A stretch of 64,000 nt of DNA, taken from NCBI RefSeq assembly GCF_001006305.1, contig NZ_LBHJ01000004.1, positions 372,001-436,000 on the forward strand, read 5' to 3'. The DNA is from Silvibacterium bohemicum. GTDB lineage: Bacteria > Acidobacteriota > Terriglobia > Terriglobales > Acidobacteriaceae. Below are positions 24,366 through 60,366 of the stretch, in pieces (the first letter of the stretch is position 1; the number at the start of each line of letters is the position of its first letter). The notes under the pieces were generated by a model. It was not told the origin of the DNA. It worked only from the letters and a program-made list of their open reading frames with translations, and ran no database searches. The translations under genes and the position numbers were made by a program.

Positions 24366-24383
24366 CTGGCGGAGAGAGGGGGA
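24366..24383. repeat. attL core
   Basis: CTGGCGGAGAGAGGGGGA is identical to 60273-60290, the 3' end of tRNA-Ser including its encoded CCA. Identity stops abruptly to the right. To the left, about 12 of the next 16 bases also match, so the original crossover region may have been a little longer. It lies 95 bp before the integrase start. Confidence 0.88.
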
Positions 24384-24477
24384 GTCCACCACTAAGTACA
24401 TTTTTAGGCTTATTTTGCATGTATTTCCTCCGTGGTACGATCAAGGTACGATTTCCCCGGAGGAGATGTCAAGAAAA

Positions 24478-25686
24478 ATGGCCAACAGAGCCGTTAAGTT
24501 GTATCGCAAGGTCAAGACGACACAGGGATGGAAGCGATATCCGGCAGTCATGGCCGCGAATGGAAAAGTGAAGCCCGATATTGCGCTAGTGGGTGACAGC
24601 GAACAGAAATTCCCCATCGGTCACTATGAGCTGCGCTCGTTCCAGGGATCGAAGACGGTTTGGACCCGGGTGAACGGTGGACCTTCCGAAGCTCTTGCTG
24701 CCCTTCGCACAGCGCAGCGCAAGGCTGCGCTCCGAATCGAAGCCGAGCAGACCGGTATCAGGGTGATTGAGGAGGAGAAGCGGATCAGCCTCCAGAGCGC
24801 CCTGAAGCAGTTCAAAGAGGCTGCCGAGGCTCGGGGCTCGCTGGAGGCTTCCGAGGTCTACGGTCGAACGATCGGAGACTTCATCACCGTCACCGGCAAA
24901 CAATACGCCGACCAGATCACGAGCGCAGACGTCACTCAGTTTCAGGCTGCAATGCGTAAACGCAAGCTCTCGGATCGCACGGTCAGCAACCGGCACGGAC
25001 ATCTCAGATCATTCCTGAGATTCCTCAAGCTGGATGCCGACGCCGTTAAGGAGATTGCTGGATCGAAACCGCGCTTCGAAAAGACCCTCCCCGAAGTTTT
25101 CGAGCCTGACGAATTGTCCACGTTCTTCGGCTCACTCGATGAGGAATATGACCAGCTGCTCTTTGACGTGCTCCTGACTTGCGGTCTGCGGGAGCAGGAA
25201 GTGATGCATCTGGAGTGGACGGACTTGAACAAGGTCAGAGGAACACTCAAAGTTCAATCGAAGCCGCGCTGGGGATTCAAGGTGAAGGACGCTGAAGAGC
25301 GCGAGCTTCCGGTCAATGCTGACCTGATGACTCGTCTATTTTCGTATCGTGAAAATGATCTGGAAGCCCGGCTTGTCTTCGGATCAAAGGGCGGGAAAGT
25401 CGATGTTCCTGACGGCCACCTGCTGCGCAGATTAAAGGTGCTGGCGCGGGACGCCGGGCTCAACTGCGGATCGTGCAAGGGTTGCGTGGCTCGGCGCGAG
25501 TGCGAACACTGGTTCCTGCATAAGTTCCGGGCGACCTTCATCACCACGCTGTTGCGCAACGGACTCGACCTTCGCACCGTGATGTCGCTCTCCGGCCACA
25601 CAGACCTCGAAAGTGTGATGCGCTATCTCCGCCCCGCCGAAGGCAAGCACGTCCAGGATCGCATCAATGCGATCAAATGGCGTTGA
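24478..25686 (+). CDS. Phage tyrosine integrase with a Cys-knuckle insert
   Basis: Site-specific recombinase that would insert and excise the prophage at tRNA-Ser. From the ATG at 24478 (402 residues; GGAGGAG ends 12 bases upstream; ATG at 24466 is too close to it) there is an arm-binding N-terminal part, a core-binding SAM-like domain (~115-205) and the catalytic domain. Catalytic residues: Arg238 (CGLREQEV), His348 and Arg351 (HKFR), His374 (SGHTD) and Tyr383 (MRYLRP). Between them is an insert with Cys330, 333, 336 and 342 (C-x2-C-x2-C-x5-C), a likely zinc knuckle. Confidence 0.95.
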   Translation: MANRAVKLYRKVKTTQGWKRYPAVMAANGKVKPDIALVGDSEQKFPIGHYELRSFQGSKTVWTRVNGGPSEALAALRTAQRKAALRIEAEQTGIRVIEEEKRISLQSALKQFKEAAEARGSLEASEVYGRTIGDFITVTGKQYADQITSADVTQFQAAMRKRKLSDRTVSNRHGHLRSFLRFLKLDADAVKEIAGSKPRFEKTLPEVFEPDELSTFFGSLDEEYDQLLFDVLLTCGLREQEVMHLEWTDLNKVRGTLKVQSKPRWGFKVKDAEERELPVNADLMTRLFSYRENDLEARLVFGSKGGKVDVPDGHLLRRLKVLARDAGLNCGSCKGCVARRECEHWFLHKFRATFITTLLRNGLDLRTVMSLSGHTDLESVMRYLRPAEGKHVQDRINAIKWR

Positions 25687-51288: not shown

Positions 51289-51927
51289 ATGTCTAATCTC
51301 AAGATTGCTATAGACTTCGTTTTGAAGCAGGAAGATTCGCGCCTCCTCGGGAATATAACCACCATCCCCGGCGACCGTGGTGGCCCAACCCGCTTCGGAC
51401 TCGCCTCCGCGTCTCATCCAGAATTAATTGCTCAGGGCTACTATGACCCGGCAAAGGTGAACCGTGATGCCGCGCTCGCTATTGCGGAGCAGGTATATGA
51501 GAAAACCTATGCGACTCCGATGCGGATCGCCGACATCAACGATCAGGCGCTGGCGACCGCCGTGCTGTCGTTAGGAGTAAACGCTTGGATCGTGAAGCCG
51601 ATCAAGCTTCTGCAACAGGCCGTGACAAAGCTGGGCAAGCCTATCGTGGTTGACGGGCATGTTGGCCTGGTCACGCTTCAGGCGGTTAACGACCTGAATC
51701 CGACTCTGCTGCTCAATCAGTTCTGTGTAGAGGTGGGGCAGTATTACAGGGATCTCGTGGCCGCAATGCCCTCCGATCAGCGGTTTTTGAAGGGGTGGCT
51801 CAATCGTGTGGATGCGTGGCTTGGGGTCAACACCACAGACACAGCAAGGCCGTCTCTTCGAAGAGACGGCCTTGCTGCTGAGATGTCTAGGGAGACACAT
51901 GACAGGCATGTCCGGTGCTTGCCTTAA
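51289..51927 (+). CDS. GH108-type endolysin
   Basis: A 212-residue muramidase: FVLKQEDSRLLGNITTIPGD with Glu15 as the catalytic Glu, GGPTRFGLAS, YEKTYATPMRIADINDQALA and a peptidoglycan-binding C-terminal region (HVGLVTLQAVNDLNPTLLLN). It cuts glycan strands for lysis. The last ~30 residues (from TTDTARPS) are encoded by a palindromic hairpin and are probably a recent extension. Confidence 0.88.
   Translation: MSNLKIAIDFVLKQEDSRLLGNITTIPGDRGGPTRFGLASASHPELIAQGYYDPAKVNRDAALAIAEQVYEKTYATPMRIADINDQALATAVLSLGVNAWIVKPIKLLQQAVTKLGKPIVVDGHVGLVTLQAVNDLNPTLLLNQFCVEVGQYYRDLVAAMPSDQRFLKGWLNRVDAWLGVNTTDTARPSLRRDGLAAEMSRETHDRHVRCLP
51842..51877. terminator. 36-bp perfect palindrome within the endolysin end
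   Basis: CAGCAAGGCCGTCTCTTC and its exact reverse complement, with no loop bases left over. It would form an 18-bp stem on either strand and could terminate both the endolysin transcript and the converging cargo operon. It lies inside the last 30 codons of the endolysin and has no U-tract. Confidence 0.6.
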
Positions 51928-52531
51928 GCTCCCTCTCCGACAACACACTCTCGACGTGCAGTGTGCTACTGTTTATTCGCAACCCGTAACAGTAGGTGTC
52001 TAGAGGACCAGAGTCCCCAAGGTATGTCTCCCCACCCACTGCCAGTAACATGCTGCTATCCCTCCAAGAAACCAGCGTCGGCAGATAGAACTGGACATGC
52101 TTACCTTTCCCCAGCCGTTCTGCCAGCGTCTCAGTGACCGTTTTGTCGAGGTCGTCTGAGGCGGGTTCGCTCGTCTGTGCAGGAGATCCTGGCACGGGAA
52201 AGAGCAGTAACCTGTTCGTCCCGCTCAAGGGCTGGTTGACTACAAGGACATGCTTGCTATCGGGACTCCAGAACACCTCCGCGCTCCGCTGAAGCGTAAA
52301 GAGCGGCCACGATTTCGACTCTCCACACTTGCGGATAGTGACAGGCGACCTGTTTTCATCCGCATCCAGAACGGGATGGACCTTTACCTCCCATACACGA
52401 TCCGGAGAGCTAACCTTTGCTTCTTCGCTCCAGTGAAGATTCGCGTGCGTCCTGACAGGGCCAGAACACTGCGCCCGCGATGTCCCTGTTAACAGCAACG
52501 ACAGAATGATAAGTATTAGATATTTCATCAC
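51887..52531 (-). CDS. Exported propeller-like protein, partner of the orphan tip
   Basis: A 214-residue protein with a signal peptide (KYLILIILSLLLTGTSRA) and WD40/TolB-like strands (EVFWSPDSKHVLVVNQPLSG, LPTLVSWRDSSMLLAVGG), six Cys in the mature part. Its layout parallels the protein at 52995-53645 (signal peptide, then SP..VW and ..FWSPDSKH.. where the other has ISWSPGSGTF). ATGA overlap with the orphan tip gene indicates a pair. Candidate periplasmic immunity protein (inference). Last gene of the cargo operon. Confidence 0.65.
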   Translation of the reverse strand: MMKYLILIILSLLLTGTSRAQCSGPVRTHANLHWSEEAKVSSPDRVWEVKVHPVLDADENRSPVTIRKCGESKSWPLFTLQRSAEVFWSPDSKHVLVVNQPLSGTNRLLLFPVPGSPAQTSEPASDDLDKTVTETLAERLGKGKHVQFYLPTLVSWRDSSMLLAVGGETYLGDSGPLDTYCYGLRINSSTLHVESVLSERELKASTGHACHVSP

Positions 52532-52998
52532 TGAACCTTAGTAAAACCGGCTGGGCAACTTCCGCCAGACGCGGCTGGGAAGCTGATCGTTGTATTCATT
52601 GTTTGCCGCCCAAATTGCCTTCCGGCAGTCACAGTTGGGAAACGGTATAGGTCGAAGGCTACTCCTGGAGTATTTTGGATGTTTACATCCCCGTAATCAG
52701 AAACCGACAATGGACCAGTCGGCCCTCCGTACTGACTAATCAATCCCTGATTGCTTGGAGTGATGAAAATCTGAGTCCCATAAGTTCGGAGTTGGCGAGT
52801 GCTCAGTCCTAAAAAGCCATTCTGAACAGCTACCGTTCCAAAAGCGCCTCCTGGGATAGACCCTCCAACTTTGTCAGGAAAAATGGAATATAGTGCCCCG
52901 CTGTGGCCTGTATACTTCGCTTGATTTCCACCAACACCTGTAAACATTGCTGGCCCCGTGCAGGTAATCCTCCCTTTGCTTGGGGCTTGCAGAGTCAC
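52528..52998 (-). CDS. Orphan Rhs-tip-like protein
   Basis: A 156-residue protein without a YD-repeat part or signal peptide. Its C-terminal half aligns by eye with the last ~90 residues of the Rhs protein: GPLSVSDYGDVNIQNTPGVA then FDLYRFPTVTAGRQFGRQT here, against FFPVDNIGPASVRNAPGNA then FDVYNYPSFKQAFASTR there. Both also share RTYG/FLGM-type strand starts and a CP near the end. It overlaps both neighbours by four bases. It looks like a displaced, silent tip cassette, as in rhs/CDI orphan arrays. Confidence 0.6.
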   Translation of the reverse strand: MTLQAPSKGRITCTGPAMFTGVGGNQAKYTGHSGALYSIFPDKVGGSIPGGAFGTVAVQNGFLGLSTRQLRTYGTQIFITPSNQGLISQYGGPTGPLSVSDYGDVNIQNTPGVAFDLYRFPTVTAGRQFGRQTMNTTISFPAASGGSCPAGFTKVQ

Positions 52999-53645
52999 TT
53001 GAGAAACATAGTAGACGGTAGCATCGAGCCAAACCTGGCTTTGGTCTGCGCCTTAGACAGTGTCTTCACAATAGTGCCGTCATGTTCACGAACTATGAGG
53101 CTAATGAAGTCTTCAGGCGTTCCGCATGGCTCGTTTACCGTTGGCTGTACCAGCAAGAGAATCTGCCTACCATGGTCGGCCCAGCCAAAGCCCCATACAT
53201 TAGGATCAGCGGCGGATGGATTACAGTGTGCCCTGCTACGGTAAAGGGAGACCGCTGCTCGCTCGATGGATGTATCTTCTTCAACCCTGTTATCGTTCAG
53301 CCTGAACAGACGAAAGGCGCTAGACATGCCGGAGCCGTCCCCATCGTTCAGAAAAAACGTGCCTGACCCAGGAGACCAAGAGATCATTGCGGGAGGTTCA
53401 AGCCTCGGAGCATCCCACTGGAACTGCTTTTGCTCGGACGTTGTCCAAAGCGACAGGGCTCCTTCATTACCGATCCGTAGAACAAAGCGTTCGCTTGGTG
53501 AACTGAACTTTTCAGGACAGTCCGCAACGATGTTGCGGAGTTCTGAGTTCCACGCCTTCGTGCCGGAGAGGGCACAGTTCTGTCCTTGCGCGGAAGAACA
53601 AACACACATCAGAATCATAGCGATGCAGAGAGCTATTGTGGGCAT
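52995..53645 (-). CDS. Exported propeller-like protein, partner of the Rhs tip
   Basis: A 216-residue protein with a signal peptide (TIALCIAMILMCVCSSAQG) and propeller-like strands (GNEGALSLWTTSEQKQFQWD, MISWSPGSGTFFLNDGDGSG, GWADHGRQILLLVQPTVN). It overlaps the end of the Rhs gene by 13 bases and the orphan tip gene by 4. Its export would place it in the periplasm, so if the Rhs tip is toxic there, this is the natural immunity candidate (inference). Confidence 0.65.
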   Translation of the reverse strand: MPTIALCIAMILMCVCSSAQGQNCALSGTKAWNSELRNIVADCPEKFSSPSERFVLRIGNEGALSLWTTSEQKQFQWDAPRLEPPAMISWSPGSGTFFLNDGDGSGMSSAFRLFRLNDNRVEEDTSIERAAVSLYRSRAHCNPSAADPNVWGFGWADHGRQILLLVQPTVNEPCGTPEDFISLIVREHDGTIVKTLSKAQTKARFGSMLPSTMFLK

Positions 53646-56600
53646 CTGACCCCCGCAGTATTGGCTGGAATGTACGTCGTAACCATGGCCGTTCTCGTTG
53701 AGGCAAACGCCTGTTTGAAAGACGGATAGTTATAGACATCGAAAGCGTTTCCCGGAGCATTGCGCACTGAGGCCGGCCCAATATTGTCGACTGGAAAGAA
53801 TGGCCCTTGAGTCGGGATACCAGAAGGCACGGTAGTACCGCTCCAGTTCACCGTGAACGTCATTCCAAGGAATACGCTCCGGTTAGAGCCGTTTATACCT
53901 CCTACACCGAAGTTGCCTGGCTTAATGGCTACTCCGCCGTTAGGTATGCCGCCCCGAGGCGTTTGACTGATCGCGGTTGTACCGGGCGCTTGTCCTGGGG
54001 CGACACCCGTGATTTTGAATGGAACGGCAGGGCAGGTCGTCCCGTTGTTTGGGGCGGAAGGTCTCGTTCCACCACCGCTAGGCTGCTGAGAAGGGATACC
54101 TGGTCCGGGGGGCGGCGGGTCAGGCTCAGGGCCAGGGTCAGGATCACCACTAGACGGCGCGTCGACGCAGATGGTTCCATCGTCAGTGCCTGGCGGACAA
54201 TCCACGACTTCCAACCCCGACGGATCAATGAAGGCGAGTGGATTGTTTAGCACATAGCTGTAGCGATTCATGCTTTGTGGGTTGGTGAAGTCGTAGCTTC
54301 CGCTGTAGGGATCGGGGGAGAGCCAGCGCCCTTGGGTCCCGGAGTACTGACGAAACTGGCTCAGATGTGTCAAGGCAAGGCTGTCGAGCATCATTCCGCC
54401 GAAATGGTAATAGTCCCAGCTTGCTCCATGGTCCGTGTAGCCGTCTCCAAAAGGAAGTGAATCGAACGTCGCCTCCACGCTGCCATTATAGGAGGTGGTC
54501 ATCCGCGTCGTATTGACCCAGTCTTTATGTTCAAAATGCATTGCATTATCAGCGTAAGCCCCGATCTCAGTCCCTCCCCAATAGTACATACCCTCAATGA
54601 GTTGGTTCACATTAGGAGTCCAGGTCGTAGTTAACTGTCCAGACGGACTCCAATAAAACTCGATTGGGGTTGCGATGTTTGCAGGAAAATCAGCACGAGC
54701 GATATGCCCGAAAGCATCGCGGGTGTATGTCTCCGTTTGGCCATTGTCAATGGTCAAAACATTGCCATCTGCATCAAAGCTGTAAGAGTGAAATCCATCA
54801 TAAGTCACGTTACCAGCCGCATCCGTCACGTAGCCACCGGTGTTGACGCGGTTCGTCGTTGAATCGAAGGAAATCTGAGGTTCGCCGCCGTTTCCTACTA
54901 CCGTATTTTGTTGCCAACGGTTTCCATAGCGGTCGTATACTTCATTGAATTCATAGTTGGAGCCCACGTAGTTTGTCAGAGAGAGACGATTGAAGTCATC
55001 GTAGGTATAGACGCCATTTGCAGGAAGAACGGAGTCTGTCGAACTCTTCAATTGCTGCCCCTGCCAGGTCATGGTGAATCCATTCACCATGCTCGAAGCG
55101 GAACAAGCAGGTTGTGGATTATTGCCGGTGCACACCCATTTCCCGTTCAGGCGACCTAGCGAGTCGTAAGTGTTATAACCGGACAGTCCGTTACCAAGTA
55201 AAAAGCTGACCGGCCCAAATGGTCCGTTCGTAATCGATGACACAAGGTTTGGTGGGTGCGTTGCATCATTCAATGAACTGGTGATACTGCTGACCTCGTT
55301 CGCGACGGTGTAACTGGTCGTCAACGTCACGGCATTGTCATTGGTAGCTGTGAGGATATTGCCCAACCAGTCGTATGTATATATCTGCGCACGTACTGGC
55401 GCTTGAGCCGCCATGTAACCGGGGCCTGCTGTCCACTTATTCAATACTCGCCCCATTGCGTCATAGCTAAATGCATTTTGTGTCAGGCATCCATTTTGCG
55501 CAGAGTTCTCATGACAGGTCCACGCCATCCTGCCTGCCTGATTGCTCAATGGCACAACAACTCTTAAAGATGCGTTGGCAGGAACAGGCTCGAAGACGAC
55601 TTGCGGAATGTCATATCCGTAGAAGATTGGTCCCTCATCGTCGCTATAGCTTTTCTCGGTAAGCCTTCCCATACTGTCGTACTGAAACGTGGTAGTTAGC
55701 AGTGTAGATGCGCTCGCTTGATTGGGGGCGGGGCGTGCCCGTGTGACTACGAGCCCTTGACTGTTGTAAGAGTAGCTGTACGTCGTGGTTCCTCTTTCCG
55801 GCTCCTGTGTCATGATTGTCCGTCCAAGCCAATCCGTCTGAAAGACGCGCGTCTGGACGCCTTGGGTCACGGTTGTTGTATGGTTGGGCAGACTATAGGA
55901 ATACGACGTTAAAAAGCCAGTCCCTGGGATAGTGGCTCCGCAACTTACTGGCGAACCAGAATTGGGCATCGTGCTGTTTGCTGATATTTCGCAAACGCTG
56001 GTGGTTCGGCCAAGAGGGTCGAGTTGGTAGATGCGGCTGACGCCGTTTTCGTCCGTGGTCTTGACCGCGTTGGCGTTGTAGATGTAGCTCACTGCGGTGC
56101 CGTCACCATGTGTCACTTTGGTGACGCGGCCCAGTGCATCGTAGCTGTAAGTATCGCCTGCGCCAGAGCAGACCATCGGCATTCCCCACCCGGTTCCCGG
56201 ATAGCGATAGGACTGAAAAGCTATTCTTCCGTCAGCGTCGTAACAGGCGTCTTGCTGATAGTACGGATTGGCACCTTGGCCATTAAGCAACGCAGCCCGG
56301 GTTATTCTTCCATATCCGTCCAGCAGTGGTTCGACACCCCCACGGACACTCGCGCTTTGGTAGTTGTATACCCCGATCTGGTTGATTGATTCGTGACTAT
56401 AATAGGTCTCTCCCACCATGTTTCCACTGCTGTCAAGGTTAGTGACTTGCAGCGGGTCCAGCATTCCTGTGTAGCTATACCTCACCTGAGTTCCGTTTGG
56501 GTCAGTCGTACTACTGAGCAATCCTGTGTTCGGATCGTACTGCGCAGAAGTTGTCAGTGTCACGCCGCTGGAAGGTGTTGGCGGAGTCACGCTAGTCGTG

Positions 56601-58348
56601 AAAGTTCCCGTGCTGTCATGGCCGAAGGTGGTCATGCCCGTTGGTCCAGTGCTCGACAACAACGTTCCGGTTGTGTCATACGCGTTGGTGGTATTCAGCG
56701 TCGCACCGGACGAGTTGATCCACTGATGAACAGAGGTTACGTTCCCGCGTTGAGTTGAAACTGCGACAGGTGCTGGAGAACCGGAGAATGTAGTTGGTGC
56801 GGTCTCATCGTAGCCGTATGTCGTTTCTTGGTAATTACTCCCCTGTGAAGAGGCTATAACCGAGGCGACGCGGTAGAAGGGTATACCGTTGGGACCGGTG
56901 TAGGTATTGTAGTTATAGGTTGTAGTCGAACTCGCATTGCCGTCGGAGGACAACAATTCGGGACCAGTGTAGTTCTGAGTATCGACCGAAATAGCTGTGC
57001 CGTTCTGATAGCCTGTCGTCACGATCGAGGCAAATCCCGAATTCACATTACTGCTCGCGCAGTTCGTTGCGACGTTATAGCAGGTTGTCACCTCGGCGAG
57101 CGGGGTGCCGCTCGCTGCCCCGGCGTAAACAGCATGATCAAACTCGTAGAAATATCCAGCCGAGTTCACGAGAAAATTGGACGTAGTGGTGTTCCCGTAA
57201 GGGTCCGTTGAGGTGGTGCCTGATTGCGTGCTGCTGATTCCGGAACGTGTGTAGGTTGTAGCGCCATCTGATGTCGTTCGTGTCAGGGTGGGAATAGTTC
57301 CATCCGATTCGATGCCCGTGTTGTTGGTGCCGCCTGTATAGGCGTAACTGATTGTTCCTCCGGTGCGCAGCTTGATGCTGGCGATCCGGCCAGTGACGGC
57401 AGAGGGATTGCCGGGTGTCGGCTCGTAGGTAAACGAATAAGAGCTACCGTCTCCTGAATAAACGATGGAACTCACCAACGGGATGCTGGACTGGCTATAT
57501 TCGGAAATACCATTGACCCCAAAAGCTGTTTGGACAGTGTAGCTTTCGTAATTCACCGTGACCGTTTGGCTATTTCCATTTGGGTCGGTGTACTTGTAAA
57601 GTACAGGGCTCGGCGCTGCTCCAGAAACGGTGAGCGCGGTCTTGCCCATCGTATCGGTAAATACGCCAGCGGATGATGCTGAAATTTGATTGCCGTTGGT
57701 GTCCGTATAGACGCCAGAGCCTGGGGAGATTTGTTCTTGATAGCCATTAAAGCTGGAGTAGACAGGCACAGAGAATTCAGCGCCAGACTTTGTGAAGATG
57801 GTGAAGCTGTTGTTCACGCGGTAAATCGAGAGCCCGGAATTGTCCGTCAGCGCATAGGTTCCGGTGCCGGTAGGACTGCCGGTGTTCCCGCAGGTATTGA
57901 CGAAGGCAAACGGAATCGCATGGCTGTTGCCCTTGTTATCGTGATAAACGTAGTTGCTGTAGCTCGAAAGAAATTCATTAAGATGTGGCACTGATGGCGT
58001 GGTGCAAGATTGCAAGCTGACGCTGTATGTGAGGTAGCCCCATTCAGCATTTGTTGCATCTGTCCACCCCCACGCAGGGGCTGGCGTCCAGCCAGGAAGC
58101 CCAGATGATGATCGTGGGCTCCAAACAAGCCCGTCGTAGTTAAGGGCGTATACGAAATTCGTGCCACCTCGCCCAGGCTTGCTAAAGATCGGAATGGAAA
58201 AGTGAACGTTCAGATTGCCACGATTGATGGTGTCGAATCCCGGAGTGTCAAATGGGCCGAATTCATAAATCCCTGTGACCTGAGCATGAGCCACGCTGAA
58301 GAGTCCAAACGCGACAAGGCAGACGTAGAGCGCTTTCAAGAATCGCAT
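53633..58348 (-). CDS. Secreted Rhs/YD-repeat protein with a variable tip
   Basis: A 1571-residue protein. Signal peptide (MRFLKALYVCLVAFGLFSVA), then a large YD-repeat shell (many TYSYDALGR/TYDWLGN-type repeats) and the Rhs core near residues ~1250-1380: FRQYSGTQGRWLSPDPYSGS and MNRYSYVLNNPLAFIDPSGL. After the core comes a Pro/Asp-rich linker (PDPGPEPDPPPPGPGIPS) and a ~130-residue tip with VDNIGPASVRNAPGNA-FDVYNYPSF. Rhs shells enclose a C-terminal effector; the DPSGL core end usually marks its start. Part of a five-gene operon on the strand opposite to phage genes. Confidence 0.88.
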   Translation of the reverse strand: MRFLKALYVCLVAFGLFSVAHAQVTGIYEFGPFDTPGFDTINRGNLNVHFSIPIFSKPGRGGTNFVYALNYDGLVWSPRSSSGLPGWTPAPAWGWTDATNAEWGYLTYSVSLQSCTTPSVPHLNEFLSSYSNYVYHDNKGNSHAIPFAFVNTCGNTGSPTGTGTYALTDNSGLSIYRVNNSFTIFTKSGAEFSVPVYSSFNGYQEQISPGSGVYTDTNGNQISASSAGVFTDTMGKTALTVSGAAPSPVLYKYTDPNGNSQTVTVNYESYTVQTAFGVNGISEYSQSSIPLVSSIVYSGDGSSYSFTYEPTPGNPSAVTGRIASIKLRTGGTISYAYTGGTNNTGIESDGTIPTLTRTTSDGATTYTRSGISSTQSGTTSTDPYGNTTTSNFLVNSAGYFYEFDHAVYAGAASGTPLAEVTTCYNVATNCASSNVNSGFASIVTTGYQNGTAISVDTQNYTGPELLSSDGNASSTTTYNYNTYTGPNGIPFYRVASVIASSQGSNYQETTYGYDETAPTTFSGSPAPVAVSTQRGNVTSVHQWINSSGATLNTTNAYDTTGTLLSSTGPTGMTTFGHDSTGTFTTSVTPPTPSSGVTLTTSAQYDPNTGLLSSTTDPNGTQVRYSYTGMLDPLQVTNLDSSGNMVGETYYSHESINQIGVYNYQSASVRGGVEPLLDGYGRITRAALLNGQGANPYYQQDACYDADGRIAFQSYRYPGTGWGMPMVCSGAGDTYSYDALGRVTKVTHGDGTAVSYIYNANAVKTTDENGVSRIYQLDPLGRTTSVCEISANSTMPNSGSPVSCGATIPGTGFLTSYSYSLPNHTTTVTQGVQTRVFQTDWLGRTIMTQEPERGTTTYSYSYNSQGLVVTRARPAPNQASASTLLTTTFQYDSMGRLTEKSYSDDEGPIFYGYDIPQVVFEPVPANASLRVVVPLSNQAGRMAWTCHENSAQNGCLTQNAFSYDAMGRVLNKWTAGPGYMAAQAPVRAQIYTYDWLGNILTATNDNAVTLTTSYTVANEVSSITSSLNDATHPPNLVSSITNGPFGPVSFLLGNGLSGYNTYDSLGRLNGKWVCTGNNPQPACSASSMVNGFTMTWQGQQLKSSTDSVLPANGVYTYDDFNRLSLTNYVGSNYEFNEVYDRYGNRWQQNTVVGNGGEPQISFDSTTNRVNTGGYVTDAAGNVTYDGFHSYSFDADGNVLTIDNGQTETYTRDAFGHIARADFPANIATPIEFYWSPSGQLTTTWTPNVNQLIEGMYYWGGTEIGAYADNAMHFEHKDWVNTTRMTTSYNGSVEATFDSLPFGDGYTDHGASWDYYHFGGMMLDSLALTHLSQFRQYSGTQGRWLSPDPYSGSYDFTNPQSMNRYSYVLNNPLAFIDPSGLEVVDCPPGTDDGTICVDAPSSGDPDPGPEPDPPPPGPGIPSQQPSGGGTRPSAPNNGTTCPAVPFKITGVAPGQAPGTTAISQTPRGGIPNGGVAIKPGNFGVGGINGSNRSVFLGMTFTVNWSGTTVPSGIPTQGPFFPVDNIGPASVRNAPGNAFDVYNYPSFKQAFASTRTAMVTTYIPANTAGVRCPQ

Positions 58349-58368
58349 GATCGTGTTCTCTCAGGAAG

Positions 58369-59136
58369 TTATTGATTGATCGAGGCAGTTGAGACAGTGA
58401 TGTCCAATGAGAGAACACCGTTGAAATAACGCTGAATTCGGAAGGGAATATTCACACCGTTGACGGCCCGGTAGTCTGAGTAGGCGACCGAAACGGGGAT
58501 ATCGATGCAAGCGTTATCGTCGGGATGGGCTGCATACGAAAGCGTCGCTGGAAGAAAAGTTGAGGGGTCGAATTCCAGATCGTAGACTCCGATATGGGCC
58601 AGCAGTTGCGTCAGGTCGGCGCTCGCTGAGGTGGGAGATAGCATCACCCAGTGGAGAGGTAGCTTACTTCCGTTCGCGTTTGATGAAAGGCTGAAGGTGC
58701 CGCTAGCGGGTAGCTGTGCGCTGAAGAGCGCTATTTCAGGAAAGAACCAGGCAGGGGCAACGATGCAATTGTGCCCCGCAGTCGTATGAGACACGCCGTC
58801 GGGGCCGGACCAAGAACAAGTGTGACCGTTCGCGAATGTGTCTTGGCTCTCCGTCTTTTCGCCTGAAGCGAGTTGCATCTGAAGACTCGACGAGCCATCG
58901 GCTCGCGCCGTCAGCGTGATCGTGCCGTTCTCTTGACTGGAGCCGATATGGCTTTCTACTTGGCCGGTCAGCGCAATCGACGACACCGTGCTCCCCGCCG
59001 AGAAAGCCTGGTTCGCTTTCGAGAGAAGCTGCTGAAGGCTATTTGTTTGGGCGAAACTGATGGCAGGTGAAAGGACACATCCGAGGCACAAAAGAATAGC
59101 AAAACAAAGGCGCAGCTTTTTCGCACACACTTGCAC
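58369..59136 (-). CDS. LolA-like exported protein upstream of Rhs
   Basis: A 255-residue protein starting at GTG 59136 (GGAG 7 bases upstream). Signal peptide (LRLCFAILLCLGCVLSPAIS), then a LolA/LolB-like beta region: GTITLTARADGSSSLQMQLA, LEFDPSTFLPATLSYAAHP, VNIPFRIQRYFNGVLSLDIT. Such proteins bind hydrophobic or lipid ligands. It precedes the Rhs gene by 20 bases, so it may assist its export or folding (inference). Confidence 0.75.
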   Translation of the reverse strand: MQVCAKKLRLCFAILLCLGCVLSPAISFAQTNSLQQLLSKANQAFSAGSTVSSIALTGQVESHIGSSQENGTITLTARADGSSSLQMQLASGEKTESQDTFANGHTCSWSGPDGVSHTTAGHNCIVAPAWFFPEIALFSAQLPASGTFSLSSNANGSKLPLHWVMLSPTSASADLTQLLAHIGVYDLEFDPSTFLPATLSYAAHPDDNACIDIPVSVAYSDYRAVNGVNIPFRIQRYFNGVLSLDITVSTASINQ

Positions 59137-59285: not shown

Positions 59286-59304
59286 CCCCGACGATGAGCC
59301 GGGG
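59286..59304 (-). terminator. Terminator after the right-end small genes
   Basis: CCCCG and CGGGG arms separated by nine bases; on the minus strand the hairpin is followed by CTGTTTTAT. It would stop the pair of genes reading from 60207 before the cargo operon promoter region. Confidence 0.5.
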
Positions 59305-59332: not shown

Positions 59333-59761
59333 TTACCTACCAGCCAAACGCGCCGCTCGCCGTGACCGGACGCTCTGTATTTGCTCGGCCAGCGGAGCAT
59401 CGCTGCTTGGCTTGCGGTCCTGGTACATGCGCCGTGTACTACTCAGGCCATTCTTCGTTCGGTCCCTATGAGCCCTGCTTTCGCGCAGACCAGCGATGCG
59501 CACACCGCCGCGCGTCCCGTCACGGTTACGCTTGCCGCCGGGGTTCGCCCTCAATACCCCGACTCCATCCTGAACTTCGAGCAGCCAGGGGGACGTGGTG
59601 TCCGGATTCGATGCGTATTCATCGGAAGTGAACCCATCCCGCACGAGCTGCCCGAGCATATCGCGTGATACGTGCAGCCGCCCGAGCACTCCGTCGATGT
59701 AGAGCTCCTTGACGTGATAGCGCTCCATGTCTGAGTAGAGCTGAGCGATGGTGTACCTCAT
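59333..59761 (-). CDS. Small phage-end protein
   Basis: A ~142-residue protein from the ATG at 59761 (ATGA overlap with the gene upstream): MRYTIAQLYSDMERYHVKEL, LVRDGFTSDEYASNPDTTSP, then a basic Arg-rich end (RTRGGVRIAGLRESRAHRDR). Its first 80 residues look like a genuine folded domain; the Arg-rich end may be a frameshifted tail. Unknown function. Confidence 0.5.
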   Translation of the reverse strand: MRYTIAQLYSDMERYHVKELYIDGVLGRLHVSRDMLGQLVRDGFTSDEYASNPDTTSPWLLEVQDGVGVLRANPGGKRNRDGTRGGVRIAGLRESRAHRDRTKNGLSSTRRMYQDRKPSSDAPLAEQIQSVRSRRAARLAGR

Positions 59762-60207
59762 TTCCGTCCTCCCAGCTGTCGACCAGCCCAAGGAGAGGTT
59801 GCAGTATCCGGAGTTGGATTCTTCTTAGCGAGAACGCGGTCCACGATCGGGAGCGCCCTCTCGATGAGAAGAAGCGAGATGATGTGATCGTCGGTCGCCG
59901 GGCTGACTGTGGAGTCGGGGCAGGGAGAGAGCTCGGCCTGCATCTGGCGCAGGCGGGCGCGGGCGATGCGGCGCTGGCTGCGGATCGTAGGCGGCGGGAC
60001 TATCCGGGCGAGGGCGATCTCATTGGAAGGCTGGAGATGGCGGTCGACGATCGGAAGGATTCGATCAAAGAAGGGAATGTTTCCGACGCCGCCAGGCGAG
60101 GCGGTCTCTACTGAAGAGGAATGACGTGGTACGGCTTTTCCCGCGTGGTACGGATTTTCGATAGAAAGTTGGGAAATGGAGGGTAAAATCGAGAATATAG
60201 AGAACAC
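59758..60207 (-). CDS. Small phage-end protein
   Basis: A 149-residue protein (SIENPYHAGKAVPRHSSSVE, DRHLQPSNEIALARIVPPPT, HIISLLLIERALPIVDRVLA). It ends in an ATGA overlap with the next gene, which favours translation of both. It lies between the cargo operon and attR. Family not recognised. Confidence 0.5.
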   Translation of the reverse strand: MFSIFSILPSISQLSIENPYHAGKAVPRHSSSVETASPGGVGNIPFFDRILPIVDRHLQPSNEIALARIVPPPTIRSQRRIARARLRQMQAELSPCPDSTVSPATDDHIISLLLIERALPIVDRVLAKKNPTPDTATSPWAGRQLGGRK

Positions 60208-60272: not shown

Positions 60273-60290
60273 CTGGCGGAGAGAGGGGGA
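60273..60290. repeat. attR core within the tRNA-Ser 3' end
   Basis: CTGGCGGAGAGAGGGGGA, identical to 24366-24383. It covers the encoded CCA, discriminator, acceptor 3' strand and first part of the T arm, so the tRNA gene stays intact on this side. Confidence 0.88.
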
Positions 60291-60366
60291 TTCGAACCCC
60301 CGATAGAGCTTTTGACCCTATAACGGTTTAGCAAACCGCCGCCTTCAGCCACTCGGCCATCTCTCC
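60274..60366 (-). tRNA. tRNA-Ser (GCU)
   Basis: A 93-base class II tRNA including an encoded CCA. The 5' GGAGAGA (60366-60360) pairs with TCTCTCC near the 3' end (60278-60284). The anticodon loop reads TTTGCTAAA, giving anticodon GCU for AGC/AGU serine codons. A long variable arm (TTATAGGGTCAAAAGCTCTA region) and the T loop TTCGAAT are present. Its 3' end is the prophage integration target. Confidence 0.95.

Follow-up and report, generated by a model that had tools for sequence, protein, structure and literature searches.

A secreted Rhs operon with exported partners and an orphan tip, carried by a prophage of Silvibacterium bohemicum: a candidate phage moron

Secreted polymorphic toxins of the Rhs/YD type form a class that uses Sec and the type II secretion system (T2SS) (Zhang et al. 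2012, PMC3482391) and that has WapA-type counterparts (PMC12704120); the former account also has polymorphic toxins recombining with standalone toxin cassettes. On the phage side, an account of phage APSE3 of Hamiltonella lists a YD-repeat toxin as the sole gene of a toxin module (PMC8579659), and work on MuF toxins of temperate phages places these in the packaging module, with virion delivery proposed and small downstream open reading frames (ORFs) predicted to confer immunity (PMC5576092). Among effectors that attack the envelope and are countered by periplasmic immunity are VgrG2b and the muramidase of the Tse3-Tsi3 pair (PMC3792639, PMC6899460). The subject here is a five-gene operon around a secreted Rhs protein, found in a prophage on a 64,000-nucleotide stretch of the Silvibacterium bohemicum genome (contig NZ_LBHJ01000004.1; the whole stretch is called the window).

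The operon is quite probably a phage moron that arms the lysogen with a secreted Rhs toxin, periplasmic immunity and one spare cassette, toxicity and neutralisation being presumed; carriage by a prophage fits a moron of benefit to the lysogen. The locus resembles the secreted Rhs/YD toxins in its signal peptide, RHS repeats, variable C-terminal tip, adjacent partner and spare tip cassette. It differs from them in that the partners appear to be exported, the carrier is a prophage, an accessory gene (g1) lies alongside, and the tip and partner families match no curated model in the Pfam and NCBIfam libraries tested.

Five minus-strand genes, all open over the positions given here, occupy 51887-59136 as a compact unit between the endolysin gene and the tRNA-side attachment (att) site. 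The first, g1 (58369..59136), encodes an exported 255-residue accessory protein. The Rhs/YD-repeat protein (53633..58348; 1571 residues) consists of a shell, residues 1-1379, which ends in DPSGL, and of "tip-A", the last 133 residues (53633..54034), set behind a proline-rich linker. It is followed by g3 (52995..53645), an exported partner of tip-A and predicted immunity protein; by g4 (52528..52998), an orphan tip ("tip-B") of the same family as tip-A; and by g5 (51887..52531), the exported partner of tip-B, likewise a predicted immunity protein. Such a minus-strand operon between endolysin and attR had been proposed in an earlier note on this DNA, and the open frames, the tight junctions, the surrounding prophage genes and the att repeat all agree with it, transcription as a single unit being predicted. 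The overlaps of 4-13 bases described there hold for three junctions, namely Rhs/g3 (13 bases), g3/g4 (4 bases) and g4/g5 (4 bases from the GTG start, 1 from the following ATG), but not for g1/Rhs, where there is a 20-base gap. A crude hydrophobicity-plus-AxA heuristic calls export signals in four of the five genes, g4 being the exception, as the note had said; its view of the operon as phage cargo with exported partners is supported. The Rhs protein matches PF05593 (2e-12) and the TIGR03696 core (6.7e-12, residues 1299-1379). RHS_repeat is its sole Pfam domain at E<=0.1, with no type VI secretion system (T6SS) domain, PAAR or other, and no MuF domain at that threshold. A search of the whole host genome returned it as the only PF05593 match, and it is the temperate phage that supplies this sole RHS_repeat match.

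The layout of a polymorphic toxin locus, also put forward in the note, is borne out by a survey of related loci (numbered with the prefix L) in the bacterial family. Twenty stretches were read, of which L062, L065 and L069 end too early or lack a long frame; the frame of L071 stops at 857 residues near a contig end, and in the other 16 the Rhs frame comes to a stop and another gene follows, though among these L073 and L080 look interrupted. Among 17 Rhs proteins, the window's included, 12 carry DPxG[L/M] near the end and could be divided into shell and tip (L072, L073, L078, L080 and L081, in which the motif was not found there, were left out). Between these 12 acidobacterial proteins the shells match in 66/66 pairs at E<1e-3, with a median identity of 32%, while the tips match in 0/66, the nearest pair being window and L064 at E 0.003; by sequence comparison, then, shells are conserved and C-terminal tips are exchanged after DPxGL. 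At 12 of 16 loci the product of the gene first after Rhs was classed as exported or inserted in the membrane, whereas 15 of 76 other ORFs received such a call (Fisher p 4e-5), a comparison made with the same crude heuristic and with background ORFs that had a higher length limit and were unchecked as genes.

The gene g1 is a frequent upstream neighbor of secreted Rhs shells in this family. Relatives of it are present in 35 of 150 family genomes and the Rhs N-terminal domain (E<=1e-10) in 32 of 150, so that a secreted Rhs system with its accessory g1 occurs in roughly one in five of the genomes sampled from this family of soil bacteria; a literature search found no paper on it. In 26 of 30 g1 loci, the window's among them, tblastn detects the window Rhs protein in the same locus, and the next long frame begins 1-59 bases downstream of g1 in nearly all of these (168 in L043). 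The remaining loci comprise L050, which ends at that point, L061, where g1 was not re-found, and L056 and L060, which have weak g1 matches and a different downstream gene, LpxC-like to the reader's eye. Approached from the other side, 30 loci with the Rhs N-terminus have g1 just upstream in 21 cases, not in 5, and cut in 1; in L131, L134 and L135 the script did not re-find the Rhs match, and g1 was found there in the reverse survey. Going by gene position alone, g1 could serve as a factor dedicated to export or assembly. The note had called it "LolA-like", for which searches of Pfam, NCBIfam and PDB sequences gave no support, none of them returning a match of note (best E in the PDB 0.59).

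Two further observations concern Rhs C-termini of the survey. Those of L067, L070, L072 and L074 bear tips with motifs that we take to be HExxH-like, and the tips of L067, L070 and L074 have no Pfam match. In L066 (5511-6056) the tip matches Ntox44 below the cut-off (5.7e-4), and its partner is lipoprotein-like.

Partners that were absent or unlinked in relatives, or that varied beside a conserved tip, were held by the earlier note to speak against its proposal, and neither pattern was found. Tip-A is followed by a g3 relative in 3/3 loci (window, L018, L019), with the same 13-base overlap between the tip frame and g3 in all of them if g3 starts at ATG, and tip-B is followed by a g5 relative in 4/4 (window, L006, L007, L017), the tip of L007 being broken by frameshifts. 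The carriers differ. L018, which belongs to a different family of the phylum, has tip-A on a distinct 1758-residue Rhs protein; in L019 (7834-9296) it is fused behind the N-terminal half of a phage-type integrase (PF14659) and then followed by the g3 relative, which we read as a tip cassette caught in a mobile element. The more distant g5 partners were compared by hhalign with profiles that excluded them, giving 99% (E 9e-18) for L007 and 84% (E 7e-6) for L017. In L006 a different upstream frame, 112 residues long and open at the contig end, precedes the pair; it is followed, with a 13-base overlap, by a 147-residue lipoprotein-like protein, and tip-B and g5 lie downstream. That the 112-residue frame might be an Rhs C-terminus found no support: BLASTP against three Rhs proteins and a Pfam search were both negative.

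Both halves of the cassette are rare. A search with g4 matched 3 of 200 family genomes, the window's among them, and the tip profile A2 matched 4 of 396 genomes of the phylum; in the same draw of 396, by its listing, the g3 profile matched exactly the 3 genomes that have tip-A. A scan of named genome contigs for the tip gave two loci, L016 (on a contig of genome G196, of the host's own family) and L017, and in the order of genome G576 tip-B matched strongly in 1 of 239 genomes, which is L017's own. A weak tip-B match in that order, inside what looked by eye like a TonB-type receptor, was taken as chance. Strong matches to the g5 profile occur in 2 genomes and weak ones in 6 (E 2.7e-5 to 7.1e-4); two of the six weak matches were read, L026 being a similar-sized exported protein and L029 a frame of 194 residues.

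Tip-A and tip-B belong to one family (hhalign 95%, E 3e-8), so that g4 is an orphan tip in the proper sense, homologous to the tip of the Rhs protein. It is under strong purifying selection, with pN 0.13 against pS 0.71 in comparison with the L006 relative; for g5 the same comparison gives pN 0.23 with pS nearly saturated, and g5 too looks to be under purifying selection. The partners g3 and g5 are probably related too, if remotely: comparison of their profiles gives 72% (E 3.5e-5), and a g5 hidden Markov model (HMM) gives the g3 relative of L019 an E of 0.0053, while direct BLASTP of g3 against g5 finds no match, the link being seen by profile comparison only. In L064 the tip stands before a partner related to g3 (97%; HMM E 1e-10); a control comparison of g3 with g1 gave 0.15%. 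Against PDB sequences no convincing row was obtained for the g3 profile (best E 0.035, a dynein light-chain-like chain) or for the tip profile (best E 0.64).

The pair g4/g5 fits the recombination logic of standalone cassettes set out in PMC3482391. In 51881-54600 no exact repeat of >=13 bases was found by which the 3' end of Rhs and g4 might recombine. Of the tip-B cassettes, that of L006 (5398-6955; a Granulicella metagenome-assembled genome, MAG) adjoins tRNA-Ser(gct) and an amino-acid permease gene, as the window's does, though in opposite orientation. An attachment site common to both, and a prophage in L006, are conceivable, these two genes lying beside each; the L006 contig ends in the frame upstream of the 147-residue gene, the cassette is oriented opposite to the tRNA, and few shared 12-base words were found.

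What the tips might do is suggested mainly by the predicted structure of g4. Ahead of the structure search, the aligned tips had seemed reminiscent of the 3D domain. The AlphaFold2 model of g4 has a predicted local distance difference test score (pLDDT) of 72.6 and a predicted template-modelling score (pTM) of 0.72. The top rows of Foldseek against the PDB are kiwellins, expansins, MltA and Ufd1; in BFVD a "3D containing protein" comes second (probability 0.97, E 0.05), and two further 3D proteins and two RlpA-like proteins appear in lower rows. VIA-align lists a diffocin baseplate protein first (Z 6.9), followed by MltA-type proteins (5.5, 5.3, 5.1) and then other double-psi barrels; absence of a fold from the VIA lists carries no weight. 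On this modelling g4 probably adopts a double-psi barrel fold of the 3D/MltA kind, and a peptidoglycan target of the tips is slightly more probable than not. Membership of the tips in the 3D/MltA family by sequence was rejected, as PF06725 finds no match in 21 relatives, the window genome included, and hhalign of the tips against MltA-type barrels is negative as well. The g5 model is weak (pLDDT 62.1); its residues 23-114 resemble beta-propeller blades.

As a mechanism, the following is proposed. The g1 and Rhs proteins would be exported, to judge from their signals, and the YD-repeat shell would take tip-A out of the cell. In the periplasm of a competitor tip-A, a putative double-psi beta-barrel of the 3D/MltA kind, would cut or disturb peptidoglycan, and g3 in the lysogen's own periplasm would neutralise it. 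The pair g4/g5, whose members belong to the same families, would be kept as a spare cassette of toxin and immunity, in which g5 could shield the cell against rivals armed with tip-B and g4 could recombine onto the shell. The route across the outer membrane, the role of g1, toxicity, the peptidoglycan target and neutralisation are what we infer in this scheme. A peptidoglycan target would explain the exported partners, and the proposal thereby offers a reason why the partners of such Rhs proteins are exported.

Several results weigh against this moron reading. The known tip/partner loci number only 8, from 7 genomes. The L064 tip is weakly linked to tip-A (hhalign 23%; BLASTP E 0.003), and its partner scores 20% against g5. 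In the six genomes with weak g5 matches the tip HMM finds no tip within about 1.5 kb on each side, and for at least 5 of 30 Rhs loci a look at the 1.5 kb upstream did not reveal g1. Confidence in the g4 model is middling, as its pLDDT indicates, and the other four models reach 35.7-56.8. No Foldseek match of g4 in the PDB or BFVD has an E of 0.001 or better; hhalign of the tips with a profile of 20 MltA-type barrels from the family of G576 yields 0.1-0.2%; and six tips searched against Pfam at E<=10 returned only two irrelevant sub-cut-off rows. One Asp alone, at most a candidate counterpart of the catalytic Asp of MltA, is invariant in 8 tips, in a D-x-Y/T context.

It is conceivable, if rather unlikely, that the locus is a polymorphic toxin locus as described and that the tip acts elsewhere in or outside the envelope, on polysaccharides (as an expansin-like barrel) or on membrane parts. 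Expansins, kiwellins and a papain inhibitor share the predicted fold at ranks similar to those of MltA, and the tips have no sequence link to the latter. Most BFVD names that carry a function are nevertheless 3D, RlpA-like or cell-wall proteins, with Ufd1 and collagen-repeat proteins also present, and in L017 the tip-B and Ntox44 cassettes lie beside phage packaging genes, a setting in which polymers of plants or fungi would hardly be the target.

The operon might instead be a host passenger locus, captured by the phage without benefit to phage or lysogen and with g4 as a dead fragment. That g1 and Rhs are often found paired in other family genomes agrees with this, as do the missing export signal of g4 and the scans of viral contigs with g3, g4, g5, the tip profile and the Rhs N-terminus, which gave this prophage only. 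A passenger origin is nonetheless improbable, since the five frames are all open, g4 and g5 seem to be under purifying selection as described above, and tip-B with g5 recurs in a prophage-like region and on a P22-like phage contig. Least probable of all is that g3 and g5 serve in superinfection exclusion or lysis control by restraining cell-wall enzymes that other phages bring in, the Rhs protein being a separate surface moron; two further phage-like regions do have a tip-B/g5 cassette next to a terminase or portal gene, but partner type tracks tip type, and the g3 relative of L018 follows an Rhs tip-A in 18 kb where no phage gene was noticed by eye (no profile scan was made).

The moron reading also draws on the setting of the operon within the prophage, in a host genome of 6.46 Mb in 25 contigs. 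The element spans 36 kb between two copies of an 18-base repeat, CTGGCGGAGAGAGGGGGA, at 24366 and 60273, which are the att sites; the attL core is 24366..24383 and the attR core 60273..60290, the latter covering the 3' end of tRNA-Ser(gct) (60274-60366). Between them lie an integrase gene (24415-25686) and genes for TerL (32824), portal (34533), S78 prohead protease (36244), capsid (37052), a tail fibre/J-like tail protein (48655) and a GH108/PG_binding_3 endolysin (51289-51927). The operon is a non-core unit of opposite orientation amid these phage genes, as befits a moron. Small ORFs lie at 59333-60207, between g1 and the att site, and a gene for a Schlafen AlbA_2 domain protein (PF04326; 22928-24136) lies about 230 bases outside the attL core.

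At its downstream end g5 overlaps the endolysin gene tail to tail by 41 bases (51887-51927), and a strong hairpin (51835..51890; -36.5 kcal/mol, z -8) marks the end of the operon within the endolysin 3' end; overlap and hairpin together suggest insertion of the operon there, and the hairpin is a possible terminator for the convergent genes. Upstream of g1 a weak terminator-like site was seen on the minus strand (59286..59304), one of 11 such sites against 7.0 expected by chance. A promoter scan gave no excess, with 6 promoter-like sites against 5.7 by chance.

Related cassettes are found in two other phage-like settings. L017 (287-8105) is a P22-like contig assigned to a Phenylobacterium MAG, on which tip-B and its partner come directly ahead of a P22-like portal gene (PF16510); behind the latter are an Ntox44 protein (PF15607, 1.3e-8), paired with an exported one, and the gene for a P22-like coat protein. 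A third possible hydrolase there, seen by the reader's eye and without a Pfam match, is also beside an exported protein. L007 (235-8748; genome G158) is prophage-like and carries TerL (PF04466), the broken tip-B, the g5 relative and several short genes. These short genes share a leader like SGKYYRAGxxARRxxDxPxG, several being followed by proteins with export signals (by eye), and the region looks like a cassette array. A tentative extension, unlikely as it stands, is that the same families of periplasm-acting toxins and exported immunity proteins are shared by secreted Rhs shells and by packaging-gene cassettes of temperate phages, with phages as both reservoir and vehicle; if true, an exported partner would give the lysogen immunity against rival bacteria and rival virions alike.

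Databases of mobile elements added little. In INPHARED g1, g3 and the L017 tip are without a match, and the Rhs protein finds four weak ones at about 24% identity; PLSDB has none for g4. Peptide-pattern scans of IMG/VR, which are limited in reach, returned only IMGVR_UViG_2861162634_000001, the same prophage, for the five queries named above, and no match for an L007 module. A literature search, with supplements and most subscription papers outside it, found neither an acidobacterial phage with a secreted Rhs operon nor the tip family.

It remains to set the locus beside the other systems introduced at the outset. With the 3D/MltA lytic transglycosylase barrel (PF06725) g4 would share its predicted double-psi barrel fold, whereas the tips lack a sequence-level match to that family and keep only their single invariant Asp. 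An envelope target and the logic of periplasmic immunity, both of them predicted here, recall Tse3-Tsi3 and VgrG2b, from which the operon differs in having no T6SS domain found on its Rhs protein and another predicted toxin fold. Like the MuF toxins, the operon represents polymorphic toxins on a temperate phage with small downstream ORFs of predicted immunity function; unlike them, it has export signals and no MuF domain found, and it sits next to an att site beyond the endolysin gene. With APSE3 it has in common a YD-repeat protein as toxin cargo of a phage, and it departs from APSE3 in that exported partners and an orphan tip complete an operon and that the phage is one of an acidobacterium. 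The YD-repeat cargo of APSE3 and the MuF toxins are the nearest precedents found.

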